Assembly: GCF_900128965.1 (NCBI RefSeq)
Contig: NZ_FQUL01000012.1
Coordinates: forward strand, 1 to 61,476
DNA length: 61,476 nt
Direction: 5' to 3'
Source of the DNA: Ferrithrix thermotolerans DSM 19514
Lineage (GTDB): Bacteria; Actinomycetota; Acidimicrobiia; Acidimicrobiales; Acidimicrobiaceae
Made by a program: the position numbers and the translations under genes. Shown one piece after another: positions 16,818-36,975 of this stretch. The notes beneath the pieces were generated by a model, which worked only from the letters and a program-made list of their open reading frames with translations, did no database searches and was not told the DNA's origin. Numbering within the stretch: the first letter of the stretch is position 1; every line of letters begins with the position of its first letter.

Positions 16818-17417
16818 ATGCCGAATACTAAGGAGATGACAGAGAGACCCAAGGTCAATGATTCACCGATCGATCCTCATCTGCTTCGACTCAACACAGA
16901 GCTCGAAAGCTCTCAGAGGTATCAGGAACATGTACGACAAAGAAGAGAAAGGGCGGAACTGTACGACACGCTAGCCTTTGATCACGTTCTAGCTGATATG
17001 CGCCATAGGCGTCAACCGGTCAAGATCTTCGATCAGATGGGGCGTCCAACGATCGGCTTTGTCTTTAGTCTAGGAAAAGACTTCATAACACTTCTTACTG
17101 AGGGAGGCACGTACCGCCTTGTCACGAAGGAGTCGATCGCCTCGCTGTGCCTGTCTACCCACTTAGAAATACTATGGCCTAAAGGAAACGGTGCCCTAAG
17201 CTTTGAAAAATCACACCTATCAGCACTAGCTTACATTGACTCAACCGTTGCGCTCCATCAGAACATGCGAATAGAGTACCTACGTAACATCCAGGCGGTC
17301 ACGGGAGCCTTCGAGGGATGCATCTCTGATGCGGTGATACTTTCTCGTGACTCTGAGACCTACCTATTTCCAATTAGACACATAGGCGCTGTGAGTTGGA
17401 GCTTTATTAATCCTTGA
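16818..17417 (+). CDS. Uncharacterised actinobacterial-type protein next to the pilus locus
   Basis: The 199-residue soluble protein has a charged N-terminal helix (residues ~20-65, rich in Arg and Glu) and a middle portion, ~70-115, reading RRQPVKIFDQMGRPTIGFVF, then LGKDFITLLTEGGTYRLVTKESI. That resembles small SH3/LSm-like beta folds. I recall similar proteins beside Tad and BldC-like genes in Actinomycetota but cannot name a family. It converges on the BldC-like gene with almost no gap. Confidence 0.6.
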   Translation: MPNTKEMTERPKVNDSPIDPHLLRLNTELESSQRYQEHVRQRRERAELYDTLAFDHVLADMRHRRQPVKIFDQMGRPTIGFVFSLGKDFITLLTEGGTYRLVTKESIASLCLSTHLEILWPKGNGALSFEKSHLSALAYIDSTVALHQNMRIEYLRNIQAVTGAFEGCISDAVILSRDSETYLFPIRHIGAVSWSFINP

Positions 17418-17418
17418 G

Positions 17419-17640
17419 TCACTCGTCCCTCGCTACATCGACTTGCTCGTAAAGATGACGTAGCTGACCTGGTGCTATACGAACGGACTCTAGGTAGCGT
17501 TGTACATCACTGCTTTTCACGCGTATAACCCGTCCTATCTGATACGCCTCGATACTGCCTTCGTCGATCAACCTATAAAGGGTCCTGACCGTAACACCTA
17601 ACTCTTCAGCTGCTTCCTTCGTGCTCATCCACTCTGACAT
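17419..17640 (-). CDS. BldC-like excisionase-type DNA-binding protein
   Basis: The 73-residue protein is a single MerR-like winged helix-turn-helix: STKEAAEELGVTVRTLYRLI, then IGRVIRVKSSDVQRYLESV, ending with the family-typical tail IAPGQLRHLYEQ. BldC proteins bind direct repeats as head-to-tail oligomers. I chose ATG at 17640, which has GAGG nine bases upstream; a longer frame reaching 17724 runs through the repeat and is unlikely to be translated. It is divergent from the pilus operon, whose promoter lies about 180 bp away, so it may control both. Confidence 0.8.
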   Translation of the reverse strand: MSEWMSTKEAAEELGVTVRTLYRLIDEGSIEAYQIGRVIRVKSSDVQRYLESVRIAPGQLRHLYEQVDVARDE

Positions 17641-17652
17641 CTCTTTACCTCT

Positions 17653-17683
17653 AATAATACGATTCGCAAATAATACGATTCGC
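17653..17683. promoter_or_regulatory. Perfect 15-bp direct repeat, period 16, upstream of the BldC-like gene
   Basis: AATAATACGATTCGC occurs at 17653-17667 and again, identically, at 17669-17683. The pair lies 13 bp upstream of the start codon of the BldC-like gene and overlaps its leader. Head-to-tail repeats are what BldC-type proteins recognise, so an autoregulatory operator is plausible. That function is inference; the repeat itself is directly visible. Confidence 0.6.
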
Positions 17684-17816
17684 CCACGAAGCTCAACGCC
17701 ACGCAAGTGATGACGAAGACGCACGAGCTAACAATTGATCACATTTCATTACATTTAGCCTACAGCTTCGGCGTCTTCAAACAGGTTTGCATAAGGTGCA
17801 AAATTACAGAGATCGA

Positions 17817-17846
17817 TTGACAGAGACATCTCGGAGCTGTTAATAT
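17817..17846 (+). promoter_or_regulatory. Sigma-70-type promoter for the pilus operon
   Basis: TTGACA at 17817-17822 is followed after 18 bases by TAATAT at 17841-17846. The cpaB-like start is 35 bp downstream with a GGAGG at 17868-17872. Both hexamers are close to consensus. Confidence 0.65.
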
Positions 17847-17880
17847 CTCACCTAGCAAGGATGCTACGGAGGATCATGGA

Positions 17881-18669
17881 ATGATATCTAAGGAGCGGAT
17901 TACTCCTCTTTTCGGGCGTGTCAAAGTCAAGGCCCGCCCAAGTAAAGCCCCAATTGAGCGATCACTAAGTGCTAAAGGGAAAGTTCCACGGTTAGTCAGA
18001 GACTTCCTGGCACCTACTCTTCTCATAACAGTAGGAGTTCTCATACTCATCGGTGAACATAGCGCAGCACCCCAACGGACGCAAGTAGTTGTTGTTGCAC
18101 AGACACCGATCGAAAAGGGGGCGGTAATAACCGCTGGCGAAGTGAAACTTGAAAGTCTTGGGGTCTCTCAAGAGCTAACTAATACCTTTGCCGGCCTCAA
18201 CGAGGTTTTAGGCCAGACCTCAAATACCAACATACCCAAAGACGGGATAGTCGGCTCTTCGATGATCAAGGGCAGCAACTCATCCCCCTCTGGATATCGG
18301 CTCGTGACTGTTTCAGTACCTCTAGATGTCGTACAGGCGGAGCAGATAGTTCCCGGGGATCGAGTCGACATTAGCGCCACATTCACAGCTTCGGCATCCC
18401 CGATGACAGAGTTGCTCGCGCCGAAGGTGCTGGTGAGAGAGGTTTATACTCCTCCGAGCACGTTGAGTGGCGTCTCCGTCTCCGACGTGGTGGTGGCTGT
18501 AAAAGATGAGGAAGAAGCGCTTGCCATACTCTACGGAGAGAGTGCCGGCAAGATAGCAGTAGTGGATTCAACCGAAGCAGATGCTGCGCAAGCCGGCTTA
18601 TCATATCCCCCCTTACTTCCTTCGAACGCCACCAACCCAGCAACCCCAGGAACAAATGCCGCAGGATAG
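17881..18669 (+). CDS. SAF-domain pilus assembly protein, CpaB/RcpC-like
   Basis: The 262-residue protein has a basic cytoplasmic N-terminus, one membrane helix at ~43-60 (FLAPTLLITVGVLILIG) and an extracytoplasmic SAF domain (VVVVAQTPIEKGAVITAGEV, then NIPKDGIVGSSMI). A second beta-rich segment, LVTVSVPLDVVQAEQIVPGD, matches the CpaB C-terminal domain. The C-terminus is a low-complexity Pro/Thr/Asn tail. In Tad systems CpaB supports the secretin or an outer channel; its partner here is unknown. It is the first gene after the TTGACA/TAATAT promoter and overlaps the next gene by 14 bp. Confidence 0.8.
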   Translation: MISKERITPLFGRVKVKARPSKAPIERSLSAKGKVPRLVRDFLAPTLLITVGVLILIGEHSAAPQRTQVVVVAQTPIEKGAVITAGEVKLESLGVSQELTNTFAGLNEVLGQTSNTNIPKDGIVGSSMIKGSNSSPSGYRLVTVSVPLDVVQAEQIVPGDRVDISATFTASASPMTELLAPKVLVREVYTPPSTLSGVSVSDVVVAVKDEEEALAILYGESAGKIAVVDSTEADAAQAGLSYPPLLPSNATNPATPGTNAAG

Positions 18670-19990
18670 GCCCCTAGACCACAGGTCCCCTAAAGTGGAG
18701 TCTTATGCCTCGCAAAAGACCCTTATCGCCTGTGTGTCTGAAATCGAGTACGACTGGATAACTGAGGTGTTTCGATCGGTCATCCCCCTAGCCGCTCACG
18801 TCCAGGTGCTCTGGATAAGACACGAATCAGAGTTAGGAGACTTTCTCAGCTCAGGAGTTAGAACCTTCCTTGTCTTTGATGCAAATGAGTATCCCTCGAT
18901 CGCAACCCACTCAAATACCGACAACTACGAACTAGAGATCCCAGATACTGTCCTTCAAGTGCTCGATAGGGTTCGAAACCTGGTCTTTGTAACCGAGCTT
19001 AGACAAGAAAGAGATCAAGGAGATGAAGTAGTTGAACTCAGGGTTCAAGAACCAAAGGTGGTATTTCACTCCTCATCAAAAAAGAACGCCTTAGGGCGGA
19101 AGAGTCCCTCGGCCAAAGACACAACTGCGCCTACCGCCCTAGAACACCCAGTTCAGGGGGGATTAGCAACTGTGGCAATCGTTATGGGTCCAAGGGGGTC
19201 GGGAATTAGCACGGTGTCTTCTGTTATCGCCACCGGTCTAGCGAAGGTTGGTCCTACTGCCCTGGTAGAGCTGACACTTGACTGCGACCTCGCTTACCTT
19301 CACGGAGTAGATCCACTAGCACCGACCCTTTCGGAGTATCTAGCCCAAAGCGGCAACGAAGAATCCACGAAGCCCCTCCTAATGATCGATGAGCTAACTA
19401 ACGTCGCACCAGGATTTGACTACTGCCTTATCCCTGGAGTCTGGGATCCAAAACACATCACTTTGATGGAACAAAGGGGAATAATTGAGCTTATAAAGGC
19501 CTTGAGAGCACGCTTTTCATATCTGGTGTGCGAGGTGCATCCCTATTTAGCCAGACCCTATGACTACGAAGATCTAGGTAGCCCACTCATGGCTGATATC
19601 GCACTTTCTGTATCGAGTCACCTCACTTTAGTAACCCAACAAGACCCCAAGTGGATCTACGCCATATCAAAGATCCTTACGGACCTGGTAGAGAAGAAGG
19701 AGGCTCCGTCGTCGTGGTCGATCGTAATAAACCGGTTCAAGGATCAACGAGCTGAACGAACGAGGCTAAAGAGAGACATCTCTCAGATACTTTCACTAAC
19801 TACACTCGGGTCACGTTACGAGGGCATAGACGCCCCCATCCACTTCGCCAAGGAAAGAAAGGGCGCTTTCCCGTCTTTGTTAGCGCAAGACGTGGCTGGG
19901 GTAGTTTCCACGATCACCGCACTCGCTCCGAAAGACCATACTGAATTGGACGACGGTCGTGAAAGCCTCACGCCTGTAACCCTGTTTTAA
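18656..19990 (+). CDS. CpaE/TadZ-like MinD-superfamily protein
   Basis: I chose ATG at 18656, which has AGGA upstream and overlaps the cpaB-like stop; the frame is open further up but inside cpaB. The first ~125 residues resemble a receiver-like domain (LIACVSEIEYDWITEVF). A MinD-like domain follows from ~165: VAIVMGPRGSGISTVSSVIA stands where the Walker A motif belongs, then LVELTLDCDLAYLHG. The usual lysine pattern KGGxGK(S/T) is not present, so ATP binding is doubtful. CpaE/TadZ proteins position the pilus at the cell pole. Specific role here is inference. Confidence 0.75.
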   Translation: MPQDRPLDHRSPKVESYASQKTLIACVSEIEYDWITEVFRSVIPLAAHVQVLWIRHESELGDFLSSGVRTFLVFDANEYPSIATHSNTDNYELEIPDTVLQVLDRVRNLVFVTELRQERDQGDEVVELRVQEPKVVFHSSSKKNALGRKSPSAKDTTAPTALEHPVQGGLATVAIVMGPRGSGISTVSSVIATGLAKVGPTALVELTLDCDLAYLHGVDPLAPTLSEYLAQSGNEESTKPLLMIDELTNVAPGFDYCLIPGVWDPKHITLMEQRGIIELIKALRARFSYLVCEVHPYLARPYDYEDLGSPLMADIALSVSSHLTLVTQQDPKWIYAISKILTDLVEKKEAPSSWSIVINRFKDQRAERTRLKRDISQILSLTTLGSRYEGIDAPIHFAKERKGAFPSLLAQDVAGVVSTITALAPKDHTELDDGRESLTPVTLF

Positions 19991-24135: not shown

Positions 24136-24185
24136 ACAAAAGATAAAAGATTTGATAGACTAAGTTATCCACGGATGGAGGTATT

Positions 24186-24419
24186 ATGACGAAACGGACT
24201 TTGTCAAAACTTAGTAGACACCTCGACCACATCTTCGTTGTCTTGTCTTTGATACAGACGGGCAAATGGAATCGAGAAGAGGGTGAAGGTGTTATCTCGA
24301 CGGCAATCGTCGTCCTTATTGTCGCATTTTTGGCCGTTGGTATGTGGATCGCATTCAAGGCCATTATGGGGCAGACAACCAATACGATATCGAGTCAGGT
24401 ATCTCAGCTTGGACAGTAA
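24186..24419 (+). CDS. Flp-like small pilin subunit
   Basis: The 77-residue protein has a long hydrophilic leader (residues 1-34) ending REEGEG, then one hydrophobic helix (VISTAIVVLIVAFLAVGMWI) and a short polar tail. Leader, glycine-bounded cleavage site and helix suit a Tad-type pilin precursor, although the usual Glu at +5 of the mature pilin is not obvious. GGAGG lies six bases before the ATG, a stronger site than its neighbours. A possible extra promoter lies upstream (TAGACA at 24133, TAGACT at 24156, 17-bp spacing). I infer it is the main pilin. Confidence 0.7.
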   Translation: MTKRTLSKLSRHLDHIFVVLSLIQTGKWNREEGEGVISTAIVVLIVAFLAVGMWIAFKAIMGQTTNTISSQVSQLGQ

Positions 24420-36210: not shown

Positions 36211-36975
36211 CTACCTGACTATATATCGACGTCTTCGATAGACGCGATAAGTGTCTTTTGCGATGCCTGCAACCGCCCGTAGATCAATCGTTGATGAAAC
36301 CCTAGGCCTAATCCACACAGGCGCCTCGACGATCTTCACACCCTGATCTAACTGGTCCAAGGCGAGCAACAGCTCAAGGTCAAAGACGAACCCCGTTTCT
36401 TTCAAAGACGGAGCCACAGAGCTGTAAAGAGAACGTTTCACGAACTTTAGACCGACCTGGGTATCGGTGACGGAGATACCAAAGAGACCTCTCACAAGAC
36501 GTTGATAGGCAAATGAGTATAGGCGTCGAAGCTTTGGGTATGATACCTTGGAGTCGGGGTGGTGCTTTGAGCCGATGAGTACATCACAGTCACGATCCAC
36601 CAAAATATCTAAGTAGATCGGTAGTACCTTAGGGTCGATATCGCCGTCTGCATCCATAAACCCGACATAGTCTCCTTTTGCAAGAGCGAATCCATCCCTG
36701 ATCGCTGATCCCTTACCCGAGTTGGAAGTTCTGCGAATCAACTTAAAGCGTTCATCTGTAATGGAGTCTAATTCTCTGTCGCTTCCATCTGTAGAACCGT
36801 CACACACCGCGATGATCTCAAAGGGCAAAGCGAGGTCGGATACGACCGAGATGGTCTCCTTGACCGTAGGAAGAAGACTTGGGCCCGGGTTGTAAAACGG
36901 CATTACCAAAGATACAACAGGAGTCTGTCTCTCTCTCTTGCCTCTTATCTCAGTCAACTTTGCCACCGACTCCAT
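36211..36975 (-). CDS. Family 2 glycosyltransferase, dolichyl-phosphate mannose synthase-like
   Basis: The GT-A domain has VVSLVMPFYNPGPSLLPTV, VCDGSTDGSDRE and the metal-binding DADGDID (within GDYVGFMDADGDIDPKVLP), followed by DTQVGLKFVKRSLY. The layout matches polyprenyl-phosphate hexose synthases. I chose ATG at 36975, which has AAGGAG seven bases upstream; a longer frame starts at GTG 37038. There are no membrane helices, so it would act at the membrane surface. Substrate unknown. Confidence 0.82.
   Translation of the reverse strand: MESVAKLTEIRGKRERQTPVVSLVMPFYNPGPSLLPTVKETISVVSDLALPFEIIAVCDGSTDGSDRELDSITDERFKLIRRTSNSGKGSAIRDGFALAKGDYVGFMDADGDIDPKVLPIYLDILVDRDCDVLIGSKHHPDSKVSYPKLRRLYSFAYQRLVRGLFGISVTDTQVGLKFVKRSLYSSVAPSLKETGFVFDLELLLALDQLDQGVKIVEAPVWIRPRVSSTIDLRAVAGIAKDTYRVYRRRRYIVR

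Follow-up and report, generated by a model that had tools for sequence, protein, structure and literature searches.

The window, that is, the whole stretch of 61,476 nucleotides of Ferrithrix thermotolerans DSM 19514 (contig NZ_FQUL01000012.1, positions 1 to 61,476), carries a Tad-type pilus locus on the plus strand. Its first gene, cpaB, is divergent from a small gene encoding a 73-residue helix-turn-helix (HTH) protein, and the gap between the two contains a perfect direct repeat, the pilus promoter and the start of the pilus mRNA leader. A pilin gene lies 6.3 kb downstream of cpaB in the same locus. The features are as follows.

17419-17640, minus strand: gene for a 73-residue winged-HTH protein of HTH_17/excisionase type, a conserved divergent neighbour of cpaB (from family matches, structure model and neighbourhood)
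17653-17683, no strand: tandem duplication of 15 bp + 1 + 15 bp with a period of 16 bp, species-specific, with no function supported
17733-17757, no strand: remnant of a block conserved in congeners (TTGATTATC..TTTC..CATT; from alignment and motif count)
17817-17846, plus strand: cpaB promoter, TTGACA-18-TAATAT (from cross-genome conservation)
17853-17866, plus strand: hairpin 1, TAGCAAGGATGCTA, whose loop holds the CsrA-type site CAAGGATG, near +1 of the pilus mRNA (from conservation and fold)
17868-17872, plus strand: cpaB Shine-Dalgarno sequence GGAGG (from sequence)
17873-17885, plus strand: hairpin 2, ATCATGGAATGAT, with a second CANGGA 19 nt past that of hairpin 1 and overlapping the start codon (from conservation and fold)
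17881-18669, plus strand: cpaB/RcpC-like SAF-domain pilus assembly gene, first of the Tad locus (from family matches)
24169-24178, plus strand: CsrA-type site CCACGGATGG with CACGGATG, overlapping the pilin Shine-Dalgarno sequence (the CCANGGANGGAG pattern spans 24169-24180; from comparison of pilin leaders)
24186-24419, plus strand: Flp-type pilin gene (from the pilin search)

In the Tad locus, the SAF match exceeds its cut-off with RcpC and CpaB matches below theirs, and the T2SSE match exceeds its cut-off with a TadA-type ATPase match below. The pilin of the window has no Pfam match, and we take it to be Flp-type from its sequence; pilin matches (E up to 0.1) were obtained in all 42 family genomes. 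A predicted CpaB/RcpC protein, TadA ATPase and Flp pilin were thus all found, and the locus is assigned as a Tad/Flp pilus locus. No plasmid record matches the region, and no Rfam family matches positions 17400-18700. Relatives are referred to below by genus labels (g1 to g8); G000 is the window genome, and G001-G003 belong to the same genus.

The HTH protein matches best the families HTH_17 (Pfam, E 4e-16) and excisionase (TIGR01764), and is 75-79% identical to its counterparts in the three congeners (MAFFT alignment). The structure model (pLDDT 89) has a winged-HTH fold of 73 residues with no dimerisation or effector domain. In a fold search with this model, Xis of phage Pukovnik ranked best and RdfS next, with BldC chains from rank 10 (PDB entry 6ama). 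Mycobacteriophage Pukovnik Xis was also the top sequence match in the PDB (E 0.057), and no BldC chain was returned up to E=10. The preliminary description had called the protein BldC-like. The folds are related, but the naming after BldC is doubtful: because of the HTH_17 and TIGR01764 assignments and the higher ranks of Xis and RdfS, the protein as modelled is BldC-like in fold, yet not specifically BldC.

Relatives of the HTH protein were found in 36 of the 40 genomes searched, its own included. In 23 of 27 genomes having a cpaB match, the HTH gene points away from cpaB at a distance of up to about 1 kb, which agrees with the earlier placement of this gene with the pilus locus and makes a link between the regulator and the pilus plausible. 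The exceptions are G011, in which the genes are 2.4 kb apart, and G020, G028 and G033, which show no such pairing; the stretch of about 2.4 kb in G011 (contig C190, 3604-5984) looks like an insertion. No integrase was seen among the neighbours of the HTH gene. A gene of 199 codons (16818-17417, plus strand), with no Pfam match, is convergent with the HTH gene in the window, and in several relatives frames resembling its C-terminal part adjoin the HTH gene.

The pilus promoter (TTGACA at 17817-17822, TAATAT at 17841-17846, spacer 18) had been proposed from the window sequence, and its conservation across 16 genomes of five genera, with a TTG-type -35 and a TANNNT -10 element, substantiates it. 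The -35 element is of the TTG type in all 16, reads TTGAC in 15, and a plain TTGAC pattern recovers 15 of the 16; the survey of cpaB leaders used the looser form TTG[AC][CG] to take in G010. A TANNNT sequence, read by eye, lies between the -35 element and GCANGGANGC in every case. The element GCANGGANGC itself is located 31-33 nt past the -35 pentamer, at the expected mRNA positions of about +1 to +10, in 16/16 genomes of g1, g2, g5, g6 and g8. Its columns read G,C,A,.,G,G,A,.,G,C without variation across the 16 leaders and the other two vary; the variable positions are therefore the two N of CANGGANG.

CANGGA recurs in all 16 genomes, at either the ribosome site or the start codon. The two sites are separated by 19 nt in g1, 23 in g2, 18-19 in g6 and g8, and 94-108 in g5, so that the distance is 18-23 nt in nine genomes and 94-108 nt in the seven of g5; two of the latter (G007 and G013) have another CANGGA between the two. 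The combined pattern GCANGGANGC-N6-13-CANGGANTG gave 11 matches in the 42 family genomes, eight of them at cpaB, and its reversed control gave one.

In the window genome and in G001-G003, the two sites are each predicted to form a small hairpin that shows GGA in its loop. Over all leaders, the prediction of hairpin 1 is confident in 7 of the 16 and poor, at 18% or less, in nine. At its third pair A-U, U-A and G-C are all seen, and it is unpaired in seven leaders; the level of covariation was reached by 2 of 500 shuffles. With confident folding in seven leaders, weak folding in nine and a third pair unpaired in seven, the predicted hairpin 1 is supported, not proven. In hairpin 2, the inner pair and the start codon differ jointly between G001 (A-U, TTG) and G000 (U-A, ATG); the alignment of this hairpin has only five distinct rows.

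A related site is found at the pilin gene. The pattern CCANGGANGGAG is present at the pilin ribosome site in 15 of the 16 genomes from g1, g2, g5, g6 and g8 and in none of the 14 from g3 and g4, the same distribution as that of the cpaB element. These counts were made over a fixed region in the 30 genomes, none from g7, for which a pilin locus was assigned among the 42 with a pilin match, and the site fails the fixed rule in G004, where it lies at a contig edge. Eleven of the 15 positive leaders (L178-L189, from g5, g6 and g8) contain another CANGGANG 23-24 nt further on, where the pilin coding region has just begun; in the other four, from g1, the fixed region is too short to show it.

The short form of the CsrA consensus is CANGGANG, and the csrA and flagellin genes carry the motif as well. 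GCANGGAGGC lies at the ribosome site of the main csrA gene itself in all 19 copies listed from family f1 and in the window genome, with the leader variant ACGC..GCGT in G017 and G021. Among six csrA paralogues listed, GCANGGATGC spans the start codon in L058, L061 and L062 but not in the other three; two csrA genes from outside the family have no site of the GCANGGATGC type. The flagellin ribosome site contains CAAGGAGG in 12/12. CANGGA occurs at the ribosome site of 13/13 cpaB, 7/7 flagellin and 16/148 other genes, counting only genes that pass an open-frame and Shine-Dalgarno rule, which retained 13 of the 16 cpaB genes and 7 of the 12 flagellins and admitted some doubtful frames among the others. 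The genomes are related, and the counts of sites throughout are not counts of independent events. As a separate observation, a glycosyltransferase-like gene of the window (36214-36975, minus strand; region to 37005) has CTCAAGGAG (CTCA-AGGAG-TGAG) at its ribosome site, possibly a CsrA-type site. Its CAAGGAG is kept in the two closest homologues (G001 and G002); of the five more distant homologues listed, two have CANGGA in a different context and three have none.

A csrA match was found in 32 of the 42 family genomes, including all 16 with the pilus leader and 16 of the remaining 26. The match is full-length in 15 of the 16 leader-bearing genomes and frameshifted in the window genome. In the 16 genomes for which the CsrA protein was listed, the two conserved segments (LVLTRKASQSI-like and VHRQE-like), presumably RNA-binding, are intact. 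The csrA gene of the window genome (contig C81, 68181-68332; L056) is frameshifted after about 19 codons; it adjoins a cheA-like frame and a fliW-like frame that looks intact, and its leader hairpin is kept. The frameshift could stem from the assembly or be a genuine loss, and in the latter case the switch discussed below would be dead in the window species, and the leader either a relic or serving another protein. Genomes of g3 and g4 that have csrA lack the pilus sites.

CsrA usually controls the flagellum. We consider it likely that the repeat of the gap is a recent duplication and that the CsrA-type sites in the pilus mRNA leader and at the pilin reflect control of the pilus at the RNA level by CsrA, with FliW. 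The motif is read as CsrA-type because the invariant positions of GCANGGANGC match the CsrA consensus; csrA and flagellin carry the same motif where ribosomes bind. For CsrA/RsmA, the available part of PMC7652899 gives the SELEX sequence RUACARGGAUGU and an ANGGAN loop as recognition elements. Transcription would start about 7 nt past TAATAT, so that the mRNA would open with a small hairpin showing A(N)GGA in its loop, and the second CANGGA would cover the cpaB ribosome site or start codon. As on glgC, one CsrA dimer may bind both cpaB sites and keep the ribosome out, and a separate CsrA-type site over the pilin ribosome site would repress pilin translation. Since csrA adjoins fliW in a flagellar and chemotaxis region, FliW might free the targets of CsrA once flagellin has been exported, and production of the pilus would then be coupled to the state of the flagellum. 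Bridging by CsrA is optimal above 18 nt and has a reported range of 10-63 nt (in the part of PMC7652899 available to us); the spacing of 94-108 nt in g5 exceeds this range and speaks against simple bridging in that genus.

Alternatively, the conserved element might work as DNA rather than RNA, serving as an operator at +1 to which the adjacent HTH protein perhaps binds. Its distance from the promoter is fixed even though that to the ribosome site varies in g5, and the RNA hairpin is weak in 9 of the 16 leaders, as this proposal would allow. However, the same core is found at the csrA ribosome site, and CANGGANG at those of pilin and flagellin, a placement that is sensible only in RNA. The second cpaB site, moreover, tracks the start codon and not the promoter, and g3 and g4 have the HTH gene without the element. 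We therefore regard a DNA operator at this position as unlikely.

It is also quite improbable that the sites are strong ribosome-binding sequences combined with a stabilising 5' hairpin and act with no regulator. AGGAGG is the ordinary ribosome-binding core, a stem at +1 is able to protect an mRNA, and a stem is shown by the fold in 7 of the 16 leaders. The rarity of CANGGA at the ribosome sites of other genes (16/148) argues against this explanation, as do the fit of the invariant positions to the CsrA consensus and the location of the first cpaB site apart from the Shine-Dalgarno sequence. What is conserved in the gap is best accounted for by CsrA-type control of the Tad pilus.

The repeat comprises two exact copies of AATAATACGATTCGC, at 17653-17667 and 17669-17683, separated by one base as first described. 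The distance to the ATG of the HTH gene (17640, minus strand) is 12 bp, rather than the 13 bp given before, and the -35 element of the pilus promoter was found 134 bp beyond the repeat, in keeping with the earlier estimate of about 135 bp. When the upstream 140 bp were shuffled 300 times with dinucleotides preserved, no shuffle matched the level of the repeat, and its Tandem Repeats Finder (TRF) score of 62 is that of the top perfect array among 17 rows in the window. Comparable two-copy repeats (reached by at most 2 of 300 shuffles) are nevertheless not uncommon in the window, occurring in 8 of its 439 tiles of 140 bp, the AATAATACGATTCGC repeat counted in. With up to one mismatch, AATAATACGATTCGC is found in the whole genome only at these two copies, with no third, and with two mismatches at one further place, which is not above the reversed-pattern control. 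The repeat is missing from all three genomes of the same genus. The distance between the HTH gene and the pilus hairpin is 219 nt in the window genome versus 191-200 nt in G001-G003, and in the alignment the congeners' gaps fall at the position of the repeat. The repeat is most simply read as a recent 16-bp tandem duplication within the leader of the pilus-linked winged-HTH gene, probably without a dedicated function, and the repeat itself is of little importance.

Repeats before the HTH gene were also seen elsewhere. G001 (L007) has an unlike short direct repeat, TTATATGCTT, of period 15, 21 bp before the gene and at nearly the same place (2/300 shuffles); G002 and G003 have no notable repeat upstream of the gene. 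In G011 and G017 (L013 and L012), the direct repeat GATGATTAT has a 10-bp period, nearer to a BldC-type arrangement than the 16-bp repeat, and lies about 70-95 bp before the gene. Direct repeats as a general feature of the HTH gene were considered and rejected: 5 of 30 genomes reach the level of at most 2/300 shuffles, but with unrelated sequences and periods, and a notable upstream repeat is absent in the other 25. A better candidate for the promoter or operator of the HTH gene is the block containing GATNATC, which is present at -76 to -90 of the gene in 6 of 17 genomes of family f1 (G001-G003, G011, G017 and G021), a number reached by 0 of 200 shuffles; GATNATC itself is lost in the window genome.

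BldC protomers occupy 9-bp direct repeats, AATTXXXX(C), according to the available part of PMC5859096; the 16-bp repeat has a different period and no AATT. The earlier suggestion of an operator, in which the 73-residue protein would assemble head-to-tail on the repeat and control both its own gene and the pilus promoter, is very unlikely: the repeat does stand right before the gene and well above chance, other repeats exist at the same place in G001 and upstream in G011/G017, and proteins of the BldC/RdfS type bind AT-rich DNA by shape with little consensus, RdfS repressing its own promoter (in the accessible part of PMC11963761), but neither the three congeners nor the rest of the genome have a copy, the period is 16 rather than 9 bp or one helical turn, and the repeats in G001 and G011/G017 differ in sequence, period and place.

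It is possible, and proposed here tentatively, that in actinobacteria of the Acidimicrobiaceae type the CsrA-FliW flagellin switch has been extended to the Tad pilus. The assembly operon and the pilin would both carry sites, mostly paired, and pilus and flagellum would be made or withheld together, the arrangement having been gained or kept in five genera and being absent in two. If this holds, iron-oxidising acidophiles would coordinate swimming and attachment to surfaces through a single RNA-binding protein. Our search of the open-access literature found nothing on CsrA targets in Acidimicrobiia, nor on a Tad pilus as a target of CsrA, and in the available part of the Geobacter FliW paper pilin is named in the reference list alone.

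The HTH protein resembles Streptomyces BldC, as described in the available part of PMC5859096, in being a small winged-HTH protein with no effector domain and a related fold (6ama), but it is closer to phage Xis and RdfS by sequence and fold, and 9-bp repeats are absent before its gene. Pukovnik Xis and RdfS are its best fold matches, Xis being also the best sequence match in the PDB; the window gene is instead kept beside the pilus locus across families, with no integrase seen nearby. For CsrA, the three systems compared are those of PMC7652899, in the part available to us. The cpaB leader resembles Escherichia coli glgC in having A(N)GGA in a predicted small hairpin loop shortly before the Shine-Dalgarno sequence, a second site at the ribosome site and, outside g5, a spacing that would suit one dimer. 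Unlike in glgC, the putative target belongs to a Tad pilus locus of an actinobacterial lineage, and the hairpin would stand at the extreme 5' end. In E. coli, CsrA bound to the 5' end of the flhDC leader protects that mRNA, and the first cpaB site is likewise expected at the very 5' end; this likeness would mean activation by 5'-end protection, not repression, as the alternative direction of control. The arrangement of csrA beside fliW, with CAAGGAGG at the flagellin ribosome site, is that of CsrA-FliW-hag in Bacillus subtilis, with the difference that here the pilus genes carry sites too.
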